A stretch of DNA of 26,878 bases, taken from positions 1 through 26,878 of IMG/VR virus record IMGVR_UViG_3300046804_001515; one strand, 5' to 3'. Positions 1 through 26,878 of this stretch are shown here, piece by piece. The notes under the pieces were generated by a model. It worked only from the letters and a program-made list of their open reading frames with translations, was not told where the DNA came from and searched no databases. The position numbers and the translations under genes are program-made. Numbering within the stretch: position 1 is the stretch's first letter; every line of letters begins with the position of its first letter. This DNA is from a virus.

Positions 1-3000
1 TGCAACAGCAGATGGGACTGTACAACCCAGCGGAGTTCAATCCGTCCAATCAGGAAGTGTCCCTGAAGGATCGCTTGGTCTCCAAACTGGACAGTTATCA
101 GGAGAAGGAATACGGACTGGCACCAGTACAGATGCCAATGTTGGCAATGGTAACGCGCCGTCGCAAGTAACTGCCAAACCAGCGCCTGAGACTAATCAGT
201 TACTACGCCAAATATTTGGAGACTCGTATGCCATCGATGAAAAAGTTCCACCGGCCTCAATCGGCCCCGCAACAAGGGTCGCTGGTAAAGCTGGGCAAGT
301 TTACGTACAACCAAGCCAAACAAGACAATCCGGACTTTCTGAGTCAGTTCCAGCAAGCATGGCAGGAGAACGGGTTGTCAAGCGTAAGCGCAGATGGAAC
401 GCCGCAGACAGCGCCCCAATCCCAGGCACCAACCAATACTACAGCAGTGCTGTAGAACACATCCACCCAACAAAACGTTCTGAGATTATCTTAGGCATTT
501 TTGTCAAAGCGTTGGAGCCACAGACCAACAGGGGTGATGAGTTTCCTGCCATTATTCGTGCTCAAATCTTAAAAATGTCGCTTATGGAGCAGATGACCTC
601 TGCTCAAATTTCTCAGCATTTTGCAGAGCAAGAGACACCACTAGATATACCGGCCAAATCAATTGATACGCAACGTCGCCGCATGGGACTCGCGGATGAT
701 CGCGGTGTACGTGGAATTTATTTCGATACGGAAAAAGAAGCTGGCAGACAATTAATGCAGGATGTAGTAAAAGCTGCTTCTGAATTTAAAACTGATGCAT
801 TTCCAGATGGTATTGGCCCTGACCAACTTAAAGGTTTTTACGCTGCCAAGAATTCGTTTGCCGCTGGTAATGAAGTTGTTGAGCTAAGTGATGAAGTTTT
901 TGAAGAACCAGTCAGCCGTACTACTGACGTTAAACTGCAAGAAGAACTTTATAAGTCCACTAGCGAAAACGAAGCCACTCAGTCTATGGGGCAAATTGCT
1001 TCTGCCGGTGGTTCACAAGGTAACGTAGACTCATTAAAACAGACGCGAAAAGACAAGAAGACTGGCAAAGTTTATAAAGATATTGGTGCACTTGCACGAA
1101 TTGAAGAACTGACAAACGAGGCCGACACCATTCGCGATACGCTGATGGACATGGCTCCAAAAGACCCGCGCCGTGAAGGGCTAGTCTCCCGCTTGGAAGC
1201 TATTGGTGACGTAGACAAAGGGGAAATTGCTGCCCTATTCCAAGACTACAACAAAGCTCAACGACTGCGATCTGCAGAAGCTGAAGAAGCTGGCGTGGTC
1301 AAGAAAGAAGAAGTTGAAGCCACTAAACAAGAATTGACAGGTGAAGAACTTGCCGCCTCAGAGCGGGAAGACGAGCGTCGCAAAGACGCGGAAGAAAAGG
1401 CAAAAGCTGACCAAGAAGGAGAATCAAATGCCGTTCAAGTCGAAAGCGCAGATGAGGGAAATGTTCGCGAATCAGCCGGAGGTGGCAAAAAGGTGGGCAA
1501 AGGAAACGCCAAACCCAAAAAGTCTGCCGGAAAAACTGAAGTCAAAGTCGAGCCCAAGCAAGAAGCCAAGCCCGAAGAAATAAAGACACCTGCTGAGCAG
1601 TGGTCTGAAGTATCTAAACTAGCACCGGAGTTGCCACCATATGACGTTCTTAGAAAATCTGAAAAAGATCGCTGGGATGATCTCGTCCATCGTGGACAAG
1701 CTAATCTTGCTGCTGCTGTCAAAATCATCGGTCAAGGTGCTCAACCTACTGGCACAGTATTGGCCAACGAAAAGCCTGAGACAACAGGCACTAATGGAAC
1801 TGCTGAAGCGGTAACCGCTGAAAATGAAATTCCAGCACCCAAACCAATCTTGTTTTCCAAGACAAGTGAATCTGAGCCAGTAACTCAAGCGCCTAAACTT
1901 GTAGAAAACGGGCGTACTGTTGATTTAGTTGTAAATGGTAAAGTAACAAAAACATTTGAGTTGGTAAGCCAAGGCCTATGGGACGCCTATAAAGGCAGAC
2001 CAGAATCTCAAGAAAACTTGTTGCAAAGCGCCGCAGCAAGAAAAGTCAGAGACGAAGCCAGTCAAGCGTTGAAAGATTCTAATTGGGTTTATTCAGAGCA
2101 AGCTCCATTATCACGAGTTGAACAAGAAGCTATTAAAGCTTTGGCAAGTAATGACACGTCCATGATGCAGCGTATTGTTACTAATCTAACAATTAGAGAC
2201 TCTGTTTTGCGAATGTTGTCTTCAGCGTTGTCCTTTCCTGGAAAACCATATAACGGGTTTAATGACTTAGCAGCAGCTAGTAAAGAAGACCCTCGTGCCA
2301 AACTTACTGCTGAGAACATTTTGCGTTATGCGCCTGAGTACATGCTTAAAGGTGCAAACATTCCGACCGAATTTAAATTTTCAAAAGCAAAAAATACTTC
2401 TGCCCAGAAGAATACAGTTTTTGATGTTTGGGAAACACTAGGCAATTTATTTGGTATTAAACAAAAAGACAGTGCGTACAAAGACTTTATCCGTGTATCT
2501 CAAACAGCGCAAGACGCCTATAAAGCTGCCGGTAAAAAAGTTCCTTTGGCCCAACTTCAGAACGCTCAAGCGTTTATTGATCCAACCGATGACCGCGTTG
2601 TACATCTGATTGCAGACAACATTACCAAAGGTAGTGAACTTGCAGTTCTACTTCACGAAGTTGGTGTCCACGTCGGGCTTAAAAACAAACTTGGCGCAAA
2701 CTTTAAGATTCTTGAAGGCCAAGTCAAAGCATGGGCTAATGCGCCCAAAAACAGTCTTGAGCGTCAAGTTTATGAACGTGCCATGGCGCGTGTTGCTGCT
2801 GCTCGTTTGGATGGTGCAGTGTCGGCTGATATTGCCGCTGAAGAATTGGTAGCCTATGCTGCTGAAGAAGCAGTCTTGGCAGGTGTTCAAGTCACAGACA
2901 AATCGCAATCCCGTTTACATGCATGGGTTAGAAAACTGCATGACATAGTTGAACAAGCACTCAAGAGTTTCTTGAATGTGGCGTCTGTTCCTAAGTTGAC

Positions 3001-6000
3001 AACTCAGGACCTGGTTAACTTTTCGTTTGCCGCTGCTCAAGAACACATGGAAGGTATTCGTTCAGAACGTGGTGCTGGTATTGGGGCGACCGACTTTGAA
3101 ATTGCCAAGTACTATGCTGGCCCCAAAGGGTCTTGGAACAATTCACGAATTGAATACGATACTTATGGACCAGGCCGAGAATCTTTCTATTGGGACCCAG
3201 AAGATACGTTTGGTCCATACACAGGAATTGCTACCCGAGGTTTCTATGAGCGTGCTAATTCACGCGGTTTTGGCCCACGTGCAACTGGTAGCCCTGAGTT
3301 GATGGCAATGGTTTTGACTTCTGCCGAGACAAGAGAATTTGGTGAACAGCAAGGTAATAGCCAAGACAAAGTTCTTTTGACACTTCAAGCTGTTCGTGAC
3401 CCAATAATCAATTCATGGTCTCTTACTGTAGCGGGTCCTGATACCGACAGTGCGCTCTATACTGAGTTGTATATTAATGGACAAGCCACAACCACTACAG
3501 ATAATACAGGCAACGAGTGGTCTCGCCTTGAGGGTATTCCCGCCAGTGCGATTATGCGTGTGTTGGCAGAGTTCCGCCGTCGTCTGACCCGCGTTAAAGA
3601 TGGGCAAATTCCAAACATTGACTTCACACGCGTAACTGGTTCAGGTGCTACCAAAGATGAAGGCAGACCGGGCTATTACTCTGCTGGCGTACTAGCTACT
3701 CGCTATTCCAAAGCGCCAACTGGGGAACAAGTTATTAAGGCTTTGCCCAAGCCCTTACAAGAAACAGCTCGTCGTCAGTTTACTAACATTAAGACATTGG
3801 CTAAACGCGGCTTCTATGCTTCTGCAATGACAGAAGATGTGGTCAGCATGGCTAAGAAGTACATGCCTTCAGCAACCAAGTTTTTGGATGCTCAGTACGC
3901 TCGATATGCCACTCGTGTTGAATTTGAAAACCGTATCAATCGAATCCTGACTGAATATGACAAACTGCCAGCCACCCTTAAAGGTGAAGGCAGTGGCAGC
4001 GTTAATGAATTTATTTTTGATTCCACACGTGAAAAGAAGTGGGGCTACTACCCGGGTGAACATCAAGTGGGCACTAAGCTGTTCACTATTGATCCAGACT
4101 TCAAGAAACGTTTTGAGTCATTCCCGCCTGCAGCTCAGAAGATTATTAAAGACGTATTCCAGCATGGATACGAAGCACTTCAGTTGAAGAAGCAATCTGC
4201 TAGAGACGCTGTCAATCGCGAATATGAGTCACGCGAGAAGGCTGCAGCAAACGATGCTGACTTGCTGGACGAGATCGCCAAGGAAAAAGCACGGGCGCTC
4301 AAACGAATTGCAAGCCTGCAGAACGTACAGGTCGGTGACCCTTATGCATACCTTGGTCGCTACGGCAACTACGTTGTGGTTGCTAAGTCACCAGAGTTCA
4401 AAGCTTATGAAGACGCTGCCTCAGGTGAAGAAAGCCGTGTCAAACACAATTTTGTCACTGGCGACCCACAGCAAGCCAAGAACTGGCTGCAAGACCACAT
4501 CTCGGACCCAAACCACTATGTTGTTGAGTTTGCTGAGACACAAGCTGAAGCCGATGAGATTGCTGCTCAACTAGGCGCAACTGGTCAATATGATGTGCAA
4601 CCCGAAGACGCTGCGGAAAAAGAAGCTCATGCGTCTTACGCAGGTGGTGCTGATTTAATGTATGGTCTGTCTCGCTTGCGCGGCATGGCTGAGCGCGGTG
4701 GTGAGGATACTAATCCTGCTTTGACCAAAGCTATTGGTGATCTGTATCTAATGGTTGTGGCTGAGTCCAGTGCCCGTCAACGTAAGAATGTGGCTGGTGC
4801 TTCTAAGAACATGATGCGCAACTTGGCTACCAGTGGCCGTGCCGATGCACACTTCTTGGCTTCCATGGCAAGTAACGATGCCATCTCTGATTCATTAGAG
4901 TCAATGCGTGTCGAAGCTCAGAAGAATTTGAAAGAAGCACGCCCCCTGTACAACGAGTTGTATGCCCGCAATGCGCTCAGTATGGATTACAAACCAGTCA
5001 GCGACTTGGTAACTGCCTTAACACGCATGACAAGTCTGTGGACTTTGTCCACTAACCCAGCGTTCTATCTCCAGCAGATGGTGCAGACCATGGTGCTTTC
5101 TCAGCCATACATGGCAGGACGTCTTGGTTACTTCCGTACAGGTCGTGCGCTTAAGCGTGCCTACAGCGATATTGCCCCATTGACCAAAGACATTGGGATT
5201 GAAGGCCACATTGACTTTAACCAAGCTCCCTCTGATGTGCGCAATATGCTCAACACATTGGTTGGCATGGGTAAGATCGACATTGGTATTGAGACAGACA
5301 TCAAGGCACGCACAGAAGAACGCGGTCCCTTCGAGGTAGCCATGGCTAAACTCAAAGGTGTCAATACACGTATTGAGTCAATCAATCGTGCTGCCGCTGC
5401 CGTAGCTGCTTATCGTGGATACCTTGAGCGTTATAAGAACGGTGATACGGCTGCTGCTACCAAGTACGCTGCTGAAGTTATTGACAATACTCACGGTTCA
5501 TACACTTCCACAAGTGCGCCTCGCATACTGCAAGGAAACACAGCTTCTTTATTGGGGCAATTCAAACGCTTCCAAATTATTCAGTTGTCCATGTTGATTA
5601 AGTTGATTAACAACTCATTCCGTGGCGCAAGTAAAGAAGAAAGAGCTGTAGCGTTTGCTTCATTGAAATTCATTGTTGCGCACATGGCAGTTCTTGGCGG
5701 TGCTTTGGGCGTGCCGTTTGTTTCACAGATTGCTTGGCTTGCATCGAAAGCGTTTGGTGACCCCGATGAACCCGATGATTACGAGTACAAACTACGTCGC
5801 ATGATAGGTGACGGCCCTGCCGCTGACCTGTTGCTTCGCGGTGTGCCTGCTTATTTTGGTTTGGGGTCTTTGGGCAAGAAGCTGTCCATGGAAAACGTTG
5901 CGTCTCCATTCGGTCCATTCGTTGAACCTGACTTGGCTTCCCGCTCCGGTGCTGAGAAGATGTTGGTGGGTATGATGGGCCCAGCCGCAAGTATGGGGCT

Positions 6001-6523
6001 GAAGTTTGCAGATGCATTGGATTTGATTTCCAAAGGCAATTACTACAAGGGCCTAGAGATGGCGATGCCTAATGGCGTAGCCAATGTGATGAAAGCATAT
6101 CGTTTCCCAACCCAAGGGATTACGATGCGCAATGGGGATTTGGTGATGAGTCCTGATGAAGTCAGCATGATTGATGCTGGTTTCCAACTGGTTGGTCTCC
6201 CCACTTCGACCGTTACAGACAGACAATTCACTCAGAAAGTGGTTGCCGAGTTTGACAAGTTCTATGCAGAACGTGCCAAAGATATTAAAGCAAGTTATGT
6301 TGAAAGCTCTCGAGCAAGTGACTCAGCAGCAATGGCTGAAGCACGTGAAGACTGGCAGAAGTTGCAAGAGTCGAGAGTTAGGAACGGATACAAGCGTCAG
6401 CCAATGTCTGAGTTGTTCCGTGCACCGATTGAAGCGCGTAAACGCGAGCGAAGTGTTGTTGGTGGTGTAGAAACCACTAAAGCGAAACGCAGGTTTGTCG
6501 AGCAAGTAAGCTCAGTTTCATAA
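1..6523 (+). CDS. Giant polyvalent virion-type protein, 5' end outside window
   Basis: The frame is open from base 2 to the stop at 6523, giving at least 2173 residues. The first in-frame ATG (359) lacks a Shine-Dalgarno sequence, and the frame upstream is stop-free and strongly G-first in its codons, so the true start probably lies left of the window. Visible order: Gly/Ser/Thr-rich stretch (bases 2-160); helical region; Lys/Glu-rich disordered segment (about 1260-1600); a zincin-like segment with LLHEVGVHVGL (HEVGVH at 2654-2671) and an acidic EELVAYAAEEA about 60 residues later; an unassigned domain (about 3090-3650); long helical regions; and a C-terminal part (about 5000-6100) resembling the polyvalent-protein domain LPD38, with a hydrophobic stretch around 5640-5760. 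Such proteins are thought to be packaged and injected with phage DNA. That role is inferred from family knowledge, and the domain names are from memory. Confidence 0.85.
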   Translation, partial: ATADGTVQPSGVQSVQSGSVPEGSLGLQTGQLSGEGIRTGTSTDANVGNGNAPSQVTAKPAPETNQLLRQIFGDSYAIDEKVPPASIGPATRVAGKAGQVYVQPSQTRQSGLSESVPASMAGERVVKRKRRWNAADSAPIPGTNQYYSSAVEHIHPTKRSEIILGIFVKALEPQTNRGDEFPAIIRAQILKMSLMEQMTSAQISQHFAEQETPLDIPAKSIDTQRRRMGLADDRGVRGIYFDTEKEAGRQLMQDVVKAASEFKTDAFPDGIGPDQLKGFYAAKNSFAAGNEVVELSDEVFEEPVSRTTDVKLQEELYKSTSENEATQSMGQIASAGGSQGNVDSLKQTRKDKKTGKVYKDIGALARIEELTNEADTIRDTLMDMAPKDPRREGLVSRLEAIGDVDKGEIAALFQDYNKAQRLRSAEAEEAGVVKKEEVEATKQELTGEELAASEREDERRKDAEEKAKADQEGESNAVQVESADEGNVRESAGGGKKVGKGNAKPKKSAGKTEVKVEPKQEAKPEEIKTPAEQWSEVSKLAPELPPYDVLRKSEKDRWDDLVHRGQANLAAAVKIIGQGAQPTGTVLANEKPETTGTNGTAEAVTAENEIPAPKPILFSKTSESEPVTQAPKLVENGRTVDLVVNGKVTKTFELVSQGLWDAYKGRPESQENLLQSAAARKVRDEASQALKDSNWVYSEQAPLSRVEQEAIKALASNDTSMMQRIVTNLTIRDSVLRMLSSALSFPGKPYNGFNDLAAASKEDPRAKLTAENILRYAPEYMLKGANIPTEFKFSKAKNTSAQKNTVFDVWETLGNLFGIKQKDSAYKDFIRVSQTAQDAYKAAGKKVPLAQLQNAQAFIDPTDDRVVHLIADNITKGSELAVLLHEVGVHVGLKNKLGANFKILEGQVKAWANAPKNSLERQVYERAMARVAAARLDGAVSADIAAEELVAYAAEEAVLAGVQVTDKSQSRLHAWVRKLHDIVEQALKSFLNVASVPKLTTQDLVNFSFAAAQEHMEGIRSERGAGIGATDFEIAKYYAGPKGSWNNSRIEYDTYGPGRESFYWDPEDTFGPYTGIATRGFYERANSRGFGPRATGSPELMAMVLTSAETREFGEQQGNSQDKVLLTLQAVRDPIINSWSLTVAGPDTDSALYTELYINGQATTTTDNTGNEWSRLEGIPASAIMRVLAEFRRRLTRVKDGQIPNIDFTRVTGSGATKDEGRPGYYSAGVLATRYSKAPTGEQVIKALPKPLQETARRQFTNIKTLAKRGFYASAMTEDVVSMAKKYMPSATKFLDAQYARYATRVEFENRINRILTEYDKLPATLKGEGSGSVNEFIFDSTREKKWGYYPGEHQVGTKLFTIDPDFKKRFESFPPAAQKIIKDVFQHGYEALQLKKQSARDAVNREYESREKAAANDADLLDEIAKEKARALKRIASLQNVQVGDPYAYLGRYGNYVVVAKSPEFKAYEDAASGEESRVKHNFVTGDPQQAKNWLQDHISDPNHYVVEFAETQAEADEIAAQLGATGQYDVQPEDAAEKEAHASYAGGADLMYGLSRLRGMAERGGEDTNPALTKAIGDLYLMVVAESSARQRKNVAGASKNMMRNLATSGRADAHFLASMASNDAISDSLESMRVEAQKNLKEARPLYNELYARNALSMDYKPVSDLVTALTRMTSLWTLSTNPAFYLQQMVQTMVLSQPYMAGRLGYFRTGRALKRAYSDIAPLTKDIGIEGHIDFNQAPSDVRNMLNTLVGMGKIDIGIETDIKARTEERGPFEVAMAKLKGVNTRIESINRAAAAVAAYRGYLERYKNGDTAAATKYAAEVIDNTHGSYTSTSAPRILQGNTASLLGQFKRFQIIQLSMLIKLINNSFRGASKEERAVAFASLKFIVAHMAVLGGALGVPFVSQIAWLASKAFGDPDEPDDYEYKLRRMIGDGPAADLLLRGVPAYFGLGSLGKKLSMENVASPFGPFVEPDLASRSGAEKMLVGMMGPAASMGLKFADALDLISKGNYYKGLEMAMPNGVANVMKAYRFPTQGITMRNGDLVMSPDEVSMIDAGFQLVGLPTSTVTDRQFTQKVVAEFDKFYAERAKDIKASYVESSRASDSAAMAEAREDWQKLQESRVRNGYKRQPMSELFRAPIEARKRERSVVGGVETTKAKRRFVEQVSSVS

Positions 6524-6793: not shown

Positions 6794-7164
6794 CCTGCAC
6801 TAAATGTAAACTGAGTAAGCCTAGTACACTGGAGTTTTTTCCACCGCATAATAAAAAGCGGAATGGGCTAGACAGCTGGTGTCGGGCATGTAGGTCTATT
6901 TATAGAAACGCTAACTGTCGTGGGAAGTTTCGCGCTGTTATCTCTGATGCACAATTGGCAGAAATAAAAGCTACAGTAACAGAATGCGTGATTTGTGGGA
7001 GCAATGAACCATTGGTTGTAGACCATGACCACGTAACTGGTAAGGTTCGAGGTATGCTTTGCAATCACTGCAATAGAGGTTTAGGGCATTTTCGAGATGA
7101 TCCTGAATTGCTTAAATTTGCCGCGCAGTATCTAGAAGAACTTGGTGATAAAAAAACCCCCTAG
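6781..7164 (+). CDS. Recombination endonuclease VII-like nuclease (HNH/His-Me finger)
   Basis: The 127-residue protein has an N-terminal CTKCKLSKPSTLEFF and CRAC pair typical of these zinc-binding nucleases. The core follows: CVICG, then DHDHVTGKVRGMLCNHCNRGLGHF and a C-terminal helix. The DHDH..TG..RG.LC..CN pattern is the hallmark of the Pfam endonuclease VII family (T4 gp49 is the founder), which resolves branched DNA before packaging. The cysteine pairs would bind structural zinc and the first His of DHDH is the likely general base. It overlaps the preceding gene by 13 bases and its stop codon lies inside the hairpin that ends the opposing operon. It is the last gene of the rightward arm. 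Confidence 0.9.
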   Translation: MELLTCTKCKLSKPSTLEFFPPHNKKRNGLDSWCRACRSIYRNANCRGKFRAVISDAQLAEIKATVTECVICGSNEPLVVDHDHVTGKVRGMLCNHCNRGLGHFRDDPELLKFAAQYLEELGDKKTP

Positions 7165-7180
7165 TTTTTAGGCTAGGGGG
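7150..7180 (-). terminator. Intrinsic terminator of the leftward operon
   Basis: An 8-bp perfect stem, CCCCCTAG (7157-7164) with CTAGGGGG (7173-7180), encloses an 8-base loop. Read on the minus strand it is followed by seven T residues (7156-7150), the standard Rho-independent layout. It lies about 50 bases after the stop of the primase-helicase gene, as expected for the end of the long minus-strand operon. On the plus strand the hairpin is followed by TAAAT, so it would be a weak terminator for the rightward genes. Confidence 0.85.
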
Positions 7181-7228
7181 TAAATCCAACTTAGGAGAGC
7201 AAAACACACTAACAAAGGGCAACCTCAA

Positions 7229-24040: not shown

Positions 24041-24063
24041 GGACCAGTTGGACCAGTTGGACC
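24041..24063. repeat. Tandem 9-bp repeat GGACCAGTT
   Basis: GGACCAGTT is present twice head to tail (24041-24058), followed by GGACC; a related GGACCCGTT lies at 24011-24019. On the minus strand it encodes Gly-Pro-Thr units in one frame. It falls at the end of the gene 24063-24344, in an otherwise tightly packed operon. Confidence 0.8.
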
Positions 24064-24344
24064 TATTGACTTTGATCGAACCTACGTTTGACTAGGATAG
24101 CTTTCCAAGTCTCGTTGAAGCTTTCCAGTACTTGTGTGTACGCTTTGGATGGGTCTTGGTTTAACTTCACGGTCTCCAATAGAACAAGTCCATTAAGAGA
24201 ACCAAGATCGCTACTGCTAATAGAACGCGCTCGAACTTTTGCCATGCTGTGTGCATTGGTTGCCTCCGTGATAGGTGATTGGTTTACTCGTGCTCTAGCT
24301 TTGGCACGTTCATCTAGTTCATATTGCTCTGCTCGTCTGCTCAT
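24063..24344 (-). CDS. Hypothetical 93-residue charged protein
   Basis: The protein begins MSRRAEQYELDERAKARARV, a strongly charged helix, and has a C-terminal helical segment (KAYTQVLESFNETWKAILVK). It starts in an ATGA overlap with the preceding gene (24341-24344), which fixes the start. No family or motif recognised. Its stop is directly followed by the tandem GGACCAGTT repeat and the open collagen-like frame, so its C terminus deserves care. Confidence 0.72.
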   Translation of the reverse strand: MSRRAEQYELDERAKARARVNQSPITEATNAHSMAKVRARSISSSDLGSLNGLVLLETVKLNQDPSKAYTQVLESFNETWKAILVKRRFDQSQ

Positions 24345-24613
24345 GGATACCTCCGCAGTGATCTAATGAATGAATCACCATTACGCTCATTGATGTACGC
24401 CAGTTTGATCTCTAGCCCCTTGGCTTCCATTGCGTTCATGAAGGTTGACATGTCGCAGTCCTCCTCTAGGTATACATCGTTGCCTCTAATATAAGAGTAG
24501 CCACTGATTTTATCTGCGATGCCAAGTTCTTTGAGCTCGTCTAGCTTGACATGTAACCAGCCGTGCCCTGGATCGGAATAAAAGTCATAGGTAAGTGATG
24601 TGATTGTGTTCAT
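24341..24613 (-). CDS. Conserved small protein with YSDPGHGWLHV signature
   Basis: A 90-residue protein; the ATG at 24613 is preferred to 24646 because it forms an ATGA overlap with the upstream stop. The segments YDFYSDPGHGWLHVKLDELK and YSYIRGNDVYLEEDCDMSTF match a protein type I remember from phages and bacterial mobile elements; no function is known. The fold appears alpha/beta and the protein looks complete, ending in an Arg-rich IRSLRRYP. Confidence 0.82.
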   Translation of the reverse strand: MNTITSLTYDFYSDPGHGWLHVKLDELKELGIADKISGYSYIRGNDVYLEEDCDMSTFMNAMEAKGLEIKLAYINERNGDSFIRSLRRYP

Positions 24614-24792
24614 AATAGTCTCGTTATCTTCCAAAGTTGATTCCATGTTGCGAACTTGCCATACTTGTCATAGTAGCGATACGCTTCGCACACTATGCAT
24701 CCTTGTTCGTATGATTTGCATCGGTTACCAATGCTTGGTGGTCCGCCCGTCTTGCGATAGGCTTTGCGTTTAAGTCGTTTGCTTATCTTCAT
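24610..24792 (-). CDS. Hypothetical 60-residue basic protein with cysteine pair
   Basis: The N-terminal third is very basic (MKISKRLKRKAYRKTGGPPS) and the centre has Cys in RCKSYEQGCIVCEAYRYYDK, a possible zinc knuckle with CIVC. Start after GAGGTGAACG; it overlaps the 42-residue gene by 23 bases and the next gene by ATGA. A nucleic-acid-binding role is plausible from composition but unproven. Confidence 0.75.
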   Translation of the reverse strand: MKISKRLKRKAYRKTGGPPSIGNRCKSYEQGCIVCEAYRYYDKYGKFATWNQLWKITRLL

Positions 24793-26121: not shown

Positions 26122-26526
26122 TTAAGCCTCAATGATTTCAGATGTGTTGGATTCAATGATGCGCTCGACCAAGTTGAACATGAAAGCCTTTTGACCTTTG
26201 AGCTCAGCACCCTTCAAGAGCACAGCAGATTGCACAGCAGAGCACAAGCTGATCAGGTTTGCACGATTCATTGGACCAGTTGCAGGCACTAAGCCAATGA
26301 CATAGGGTTGCGCTGACTTAGGAACTAAAGTATCAACAATGTCGCGAGCCAAGGGACGGAACTGTCCGTTTTGCAGTTGCTTCAAATAGATCGCATTAGC
26401 CAAACCCTTGCGTGATGCAGAGTCAGCGAAGGCAATGGCGCGAGCCAGTGAGCCAGTCTTCTCAGGCTTTTTGACGGACATTGTGAATGAAGCTGATGCG
26501 TCAATGATTGTGATTTCGGTGGACAT
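26122..26526 (-). CDS. Hypothetical 134-residue protein, first gene of the leftward operon
   Basis: The start at 26526 (MSTEITIIDASASFTMSVKK) has GGAG seven bases upstream; a longer frame to 26610 lacks such a site. The protein is mixed alpha/beta, with SLARAIAFADSASRKGLANA and a hydrophobic SLCSAVQSAVLLKGAELKG segment that is amphipathic rather than membrane-spanning. No motif is recognised. As the first gene after a long leader it is likely expressed immediately after infection and may act on the host, which is inference from position. Confidence 0.75.
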   Translation of the reverse strand: MSTEITIIDASASFTMSVKKPEKTGSLARAIAFADSASRKGLANAIYLKQLQNGQFRPLARDIVDTLVPKSAQPYVIGLVPATGPMNRANLISLCSAVQSAVLLKGAELKGQKAFMFNLVERIIESNTSEIIEA

Positions 26527-26805
26527 AGATTTCTCCAAGTAAGTGAATTTCAAGGAATACACTGCACCATGCAATGCACTCCACAAAATCGTCTCCCACA
26601 CTTTTGCCATTCATGTGTTTAAACCATGCCGTAAGGTTTAGGTTATAGAGACGAATTTCACCGCGCAGTTACTTCACCCAAACTGCGAAAACGCTACCAA
26701 ATTTTTAATGATCGACCGCATTGCATGATCTAAGGGTTATCCCTTGGCACCGATAGCGTGAGCCATGATGCAAAAAACGAAGGGCAATAAATCAAACAAT
26801 GTTGC

Positions 26806-26817
26806 TTGTTAAAGAGC
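26806..26817 (-). promoter_or_regulatory. boxA-type antitermination element
   Basis: The minus strand reads GCTCTTTAACAA, identical to the core of the E. coli rRNA-operon boxA, which recruits NusB/S10 and makes RNA polymerase resistant to termination. It is in sense orientation, about 280 bases upstream of the first gene of a 19-kb operon. Confidence 0.65.
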
Positions 26818-26826
26818 TCGGTATCG

Positions 26827-26842
26827 AGGGCACGATCGCCCT
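26827..26842 (-). promoter_or_regulatory. boxB-like hairpin just upstream of boxA
   Basis: AGGGC (26827-26831) and GCCCT (26838-26842) form a 5-bp stem with a 6-base loop. On the minus strand it precedes boxA by nine bases, the boxB-boxA order of rRNA leaders rather than the reverse order of lambda nut sites. Confidence 0.4.
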
Positions 26843-26878
26843 ACACCATAGGTTTTGACCCGACAAGCGGGTGGGGTG

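Follow-up and report, generated by a model that had tools for sequence, protein, structure and literature searches.

Paired rRNA-type boxA sites and covarying hairpins in the leader of a long phage replication operon

Bacteriophages use the Nus factors of their hosts mostly together with an N protein of their own. To our knowledge, few natural boxA targets outside rRNA have been tested. Recruitment of the rRNA antitermination factors requires boxA, and boxA suffices for it (PMC10250234, PMC5725501); its published functional consensus is GYTCTTTAANA (PMC5725501). Nus factors can prevent Rho termination or, in another context, promote it (PMC10250234, PMC5725501); rRNA as such has an intrinsic resistance to Rho, and boxA is also able to favor termination by Rho (PMC5725501).

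We analyze the early leader of a phage in a linear virus record of 26,878 bases, the whole stretch of which is referred to as the window. The phage family is uncultured and aquatic, and its replication operon of about 19–23 kb is headed by an untranslated RNA. This leader carries two boxA-type sites, conserved on the transcript strand and varying as boxA varies in rRNA leaders, among hairpins that covary. From these sequence features we put at roughly 55% the probability that it is an rRNA-type antitermination leader recruiting host NusB/S10. A search of the open literature found, by title and abstract, no paper on a phage leader of this kind; this does not prove novelty.

The early operon and its two boxA-type sites

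The operon is laid out on the minus strand as follows.

26610/26526 to 7229, minus strand: co-directional early/replication block, from ORF layout
26122 to 26526, minus strand: first conserved gene of the operon, 134 aa counted from a conserved Met (the ORF opens at 26610)
7156 to 7181, minus strand: strong terminator-like hairpin with a T-run, closing the early block

Products of the block include a phrog_1297 ATPase, DUF2201, a family A DNA polymerase, an exonuclease, an SNF2-type helicase, and a DUF927 protein. The earlier note on this DNA spoke of a 19-kb operon, a fair label because the layout is co-directional and a terminator-like hairpin stands at its end (7181-7156). A search run without a positive control found no single-subunit RNA polymerase. 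Elsewhere in the window, an open-ended ORF (2-6523, 2173 aa) matches DarB-like antirestriction phrog_10089 in its C-terminal part. The relative G002 has 57,955 bases and is apparently a complete genome, since its ends overlap by 127 bases; there the leader separates the early block, of about 23 kb, from a long block of genes that run the opposite way. No family A DNA polymerase ORF of about 616 aa is visible in the early block of this apparently complete relative G002 (L181-L183).

Two sites of the boxA type lie in the leader.

26802 to 26817, minus strand: boxA site 1, GCTCTTTAACAAGCAA, identified by consensus match and conservation in relatives
26699 to 26713, minus strand: boxA-type site 2, GATCATTAAAAATTT, conserved in relatives and absent from the earlier note

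The 12-base identity to the rrn boxA that the earlier note had reported in the right orientation is present, as GCTCTTTAACAA at 26817-26806 on the minus (transcript) strand, at the head of the co-directional 19-kb block. Its chance value of about 0.003 holds for the exact 12-mer on both strands by simple arithmetic; allowing one mismatch, 0.19 matches are expected in dinucleotide shuffles, so the identity is moderate evidence. GCTCTTTAACAA is the sole match in the window at 0 or 1 mismatch, and the functional consensus occurs once, at site 1 on the transcript strand (0.11 expected). Site 2 follows after about 105 nt, and both sites lie about 175–290 nt from the first start codon. In the window, site 2 (TCATTAAAAA) deviates at a core T of the functional consensus GYTCTTTAANA.

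Conservation in relatives and resemblance to rRNA leaders

Homologues of the first gene are encoded in 15 loci, and homologues of the ATPase in 36. Site 1 is found in every available close-relative leader, at the same place, about 200 nt ahead of where the match to gene 1 begins, and the flanking leader RNA has mostly diverged where boxA is kept. Four close relatives (L007, L009, L013, L014) carry GCTCTTTAAAAA, a C/A change at the consensus-free position 10; the more distant L040, L041, L052, L060, L167, and L176 carry GATCTTTAACAA, L056 carries GCTCTTTCACAA, and L137, L141, L144, and L152 carry GCTCATTAAATT/GTTCATTAAATT. The claim of a boxA thus survived the search for conservation by which it could have been refuted: the element is kept on the transcript strand only, in rRNA-type variants.

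At site 2, relatives have GTTCATTAAAAATT, GATCATTAACAATT, TTTCTTTAACAATT (L137), GATCTTTAACAATT (L202, L204), or GATCTTTAAAAATT (L216). The position alternates between TCATTAAAAA and TCTTTAACAA, which, read from sequence, is the behavior expected of a boxA. The arrangement of the window is reversed in L137, with the TCATTAAA form at site 1 (as in L152) and the TCTTTAACAA form at site 2. Paired boxA-type sites about 100 nt apart recur in the divergent leaders L056, L058, L060, L137, L152, L133, and L188.

In the region upstream of the ATPase in 50 more distant loci, the boxA matches that fall between genes are all on the transcript strand (7, with 0 on the opposite strand), and those inside ORFs are split 4 to 5 by strand. 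With a matrix derived from rRNA and a threshold of at least 8 bits, 29/57 loci score on the transcript strand and 8/57 on the other (Wilcoxon p 1.3e-4). These strand statistics are indications rather than exact probabilities, because the loci are not independent of one another, the motif had been found with the help of some of the 57, and the ORF calls are naive. The matrix scan found no clear boxA in several distant loci, some of which lack the leader in the available sequence, and the patterns used found none in KPP25 or Rollin. Other IMG/VR matches to the 16-mer GAGCTCTTTAACAAGC (L017, L019-L021, L023-L026) are coding-like and without leader context, and were set aside as chance.

For comparison, we took the sequence upstream of 16S genes in a phylum sample and in the order of G373. 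The boxA forms of these rRNA leaders include GCTCTTTAACAA, GATCTTTAACAA (L105, L106, L114), GCTCTTTAAAAA (L119), and GTTCATTAAAAA (L093); the last is the counterpart of site 2, and the 16S gene of L093 is nearest Comamonas (96.8%). The phage forms GATCTTTAACA, GCTCTTTAAAA, and GTTCATTAAAA are each found as boxA in the rRNA leaders of one Burkholderiales-like order; GCTCTTTCACA, from L056 (GCTCTTTCACAA), was not seen among the rRNA leaders of that order. Alphaproteobacterial rRNA leaders carry TTTGACA, including that of R. grahamii (GTTATTTGACAATTG). The cultured Rhizobium phage RHph_TM3_14A has a syntenic early block and, in the leader between divergent blocks, GCTCTTTGACA (GCTCTTTGACATCGTGAA), which is the alphaproteobacterial TTTGACA form with flanks unlike those of the R. 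grahamii leader. This motif alone is weaker evidence, because two other such matches occur in 46 kb; its exact 18-mer was found in none of 289 genomes of the class. For an extended 19-mer, compared with host rRNA leaders, the 3 matches in genome contigs (Tissierella, a Caulobacterales MAG, and a Patescibacteria MAG) indicate no single host. A match to Shewanella phage FishSpeaker has E=1 and lies at the record end.

Hairpins, upstream blocks, and the promoter

The boxA sites are embedded in a series of further elements, listed here in transcript order.

26867 to 26878, minus strand: 3' end of a C-rich, G-poor tract, cut by the contig end; the tract precedes the element in relatives
26851 to 26866, minus strand: conserved block TTGTCGGGTCAAAACC, then NNNNGTGTAGG, one exact copy per genome
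26820 to 26847, minus strand: hairpin 1, in a boxB-like position, with AUCG kept in the loop and the stem kept with changes in relatives
26664 to 26687, minus strand: hairpin 2, stem CGCAGTT/AACTGCG with invariant loop TGGGTGAAGT; 4/7 pairs change on both sides
26622 to 26644, minus strand: hairpin 3, AACCTAAACC..GGCATGGTT, containing CCUAA...GCAUGG as in the first LOOT RNA hairpin

Hairpin 1 reads GGTGTAGGGC-GATCGT-GCCC..GATACC and stands just before boxA at site 1, as in rrn-type leaders. The upstream hairpin and the boxB-boxA order proposed in the earlier note are real, and the order is kept in relatives; the hairpin is slightly larger than had been given (26847-26820). By folding energy, the 139-nt region is unremarkable (z -1.16). 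Hairpin 1 shows fewer informative changes in the automatic alignment, but L052 keeps it with a different stem (UAGGCAG/UUGUCUA).

Hairpins 2 and 3 are not in the earlier note. From site 2 to hairpin 3, 155/155 cells pair in 12 distinct leaders, and 6/13 pairs have compensatory changes; covariation reaches 0.557, compared with 0.136 for shuffles, and is lost when the partner is slid along. The structure was drawn from the same 12 leaders, a bias in its favor, but the compensation itself, with GC, CG, and AU at one and the same pair, is direct evidence. The covarying hairpins show that this stretch of the leader works as RNA on the transcript strand. Hairpin 2 is missing in L008 and L011. In hairpin 3, CCUAA...GCAUGG corresponds to what is invariant in the first hairpin of the orphan LOOT RNA (RF03000), and the scores, 15.7–18.0 bits, are below the curated cut-off of 46.4; at the gathering level, Rfam has no match in the window. 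Sub-threshold LOOT matches lie at the place of hairpin 3 in G002, G009, and G013, and we infer from leader position that those in G010 and G011 do so too. A similar hairpin (CCTAA...CATGG) is seen at L039:6436, about 5.5 kb downstream of the ATPase start.

A matrix scan for boxC 18–19 nt after boxA found nothing significant in the window and a weak candidate at site 2 of L137 (p 0.05). The AGTGTAGG block was considered as boxC and rejected: it is attractive in L041 and not significant in most leaders, including the window (p 0.01–0.79).

The window stops 12 bases upstream of the TTGTCGGGTCAAAACC block, so that relatives alone could serve for study of the beginning of the leader. Hairpin 1 ends 31 nt from the contig end, so the leader promoter probably lies outside the window. 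The TTGTCGGGTCAAAACC block is a possible promoter or operator part; a TTGTCGGGT..AAACC block occurs as two tandem copies on the transcript strand in the leaders L133:7174 and L157:4009, in L133 ahead of boxA. In 19 relatives, the 45 nt upstream of the element are 42–67% C and mostly 7–24% G, a composition that appears rut-like on the transcript strand. On the other strand, the tract (26867-26878; upstream in L002, L003, L060, and others) is a G-run and possibly a G-quadruplex.

Between the element and gene 1, no sigma-70-like promoter was found; the only strong one of the region is on the opposite strand, pointing away from the early operon. A divergent-gene promoter, TTGACA-N16-TACCAT/TAACAT, is present at L060:2078-2105 and L002:5576-5603 (minus strand), and some relatives have an Atu_At1-like RNA in its place. 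In several relatives, this Rhizobiales sRNA (Rfam RF02496) scores above gathering next to the leader; the matches are on the divergent strand and lie outside the window:

L009:4944-5050, L152:2713-2819, L043:2953-3059, minus strand: Atu_At1 (RF02496)
L045:1420-1526, L051:2032-2137, L157:3746-3852, minus strand: Atu_At1 (RF02496)

The conserved block TTGCTCAYNTAACAAGG of the divergent strand was rejected as a boxA; it is boxA-like in some phages and has lost the GCTC part in others.

Possible modes of action and known systems

Since boxA recruits the rRNA antitermination factors, the likeliest role of the element is cis recruitment of the host Nus complex, giving a processive polymerase along the early operon. 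The sequences establish the sites, their strand-specific conservation, their rRNA-type variants, and the covarying hairpins, and from these we infer an upstream promoter, transcription through the element, NusB/S10 binding, and read-through. Host RNA polymerase would emit the leader RNA, and one or both boxA sites would bind host NusB/S10 (NusE), which, with NusA, NusG, and SuhB where present, would stay looped to the polymerase. The looped complex would render the polymerase fast and Rho-resistant, such that the entire operon of 19–23 kb could be transcribed, and the leader hairpins may position or stabilize the complex. Because boxA is also able to promote Rho termination, antitermination is not the sole possible outcome. 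We entertain more tentatively a fuller version, in which a structured leader of about 330 nt mimics the rRNA leader: its pair of host-type boxA sites, together with dedicated hairpins of which one is LOOT-like, would load the Nus complex for the 19–23 kb operon with no phage protein, and boxA would follow the dialect of the host lineage.

The main rival is a nut-like system, in which a small basic early protein of the phage would bind a hairpin and, together with host Nus factors on boxA, render polymerase processive, as lambda N does. It holds this place because the early block encodes small basic proteins, in one of which an Arg-rich N-terminus is conserved. That protein, of about 93 aa (24063-24344), keeps MSRRAEQYEQxERAKARAR and has a fast-changing C-terminus; a second, of 60 aa (24610-24792), is very basic, and both are candidate RNA-binding proteins. 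Downstream of site 2, part of the family has a covarying hairpin whose loop is invariant, which gives the boxA-then-hairpin order of nut sites, and the loop of hairpin 1 keeps AUCG. Nevertheless, neither protein matches any antiterminator family, the 93-aa protein is detected in only 26 loci, and the lambdoid order of boxA and then a boxB hairpin is not what the leader has: at site 1 the hairpin comes first, and at site 2 it is not universal. We consider such a system unlikely. The reading of the earlier note is partly supported by conservation of the element; its further point, that host NusB/S10 would take the place of an N- or Q-like factor, is not supported: no known antiterminator family was found, but there are small early proteins with Arg/Lys-rich N-termini, and part of the family has the nut-like order at site 2.

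A timed brake is less probable still. Nus factors at boxA would restrain translation of the first gene and favor Rho termination, as boxA can in E. coli suhB (in Citrobacter koseri, a different gene is under Nus-factor control; PMC5725501), and a C-rich, G-poor, rut-like tract lies directly upstream; yet the sites are about 175–290 nt from the first start codon, when suhB insertions were tested up to 100 nt (PMC5725501), and the element heads a long operon, not a single gene. We give little credence to an RNA sponge, in which an abundant leader with two sites per transcript, in rRNA-type variants, would titrate NusB/S10 and slow host ribosome synthesis, but which would not have to stand in cis at the front of the replication operon. 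It is equally doubtful that the match is a DNA element, the promoter -35 hexamer TTAACA, and not an RNA signal: TTAACA-N17-TATGCT scored promoter-like in L060, but the -10-like hexamer is not kept in aligned relatives (TATTGC, CGTATG, GTGTCG, GTATCA), and the GCTC part of boxA, outside the -35, is kept, with covarying hairpins flanking boxA. Chance is the least credible reading; one near-consensus match per window is not extremely rare (0.11–0.19 expected), and the window by itself gives moderate evidence, but the site is conserved in relatives, with a bias in strand and with rRNA-type variants, which excludes chance.

A phage lineage with paired rRNA-type boxA sites, most variants of which are rRNA forms, would be a natural experiment on boxA recognition. 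With such leaders, it would become possible to test whether phages use the Nus complex without a protein of their own, and a hairpin like that of the orphan LOOT RNA would gain a genomic context.

Several known systems resemble this leader in part. With LOOT RNA (RF03000) it shares CCUAA...GCAUGG of the first hairpin, in hairpin 3; the other LOOT hairpins are absent from the phage leader, and the score is below the cut-off. HK022 put is likewise a phage leader RNA proposed to alter host polymerase without a phage protein; unlike the leader described here, it is not known to need Nus factors or boxA. The suhB-type boxA is also located outside rRNA, in a 5' untranslated region, and consists of one short leader linked to repression, whereas the phage has two sites and a long leader before a long operon (PMC5725501). 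Lambdoid nut sites with N are similar in that a phage early leader combines boxA with hairpins, site 2 having nut order in part of the family. They differ in that site 1 of the phage has the rRNA form and follows its hairpin, the loop of hairpin 2 is 10 nt and the hairpin not always present, and no N is recognized. The E. coli rrn leader (rrnTAC boxB-boxA-boxC) is alike in boxA sequence and its natural variants, in a hairpin before boxA, in an early place in a long operon, and in a second boxA further on. In contrast to it, the phage element belongs to an operon of protein genes, boxC is not established, and a single leader combines two boxA sites about 105 nt apart with an upstream TTGTCGGGTCAAAACC block and extra covarying hairpins.
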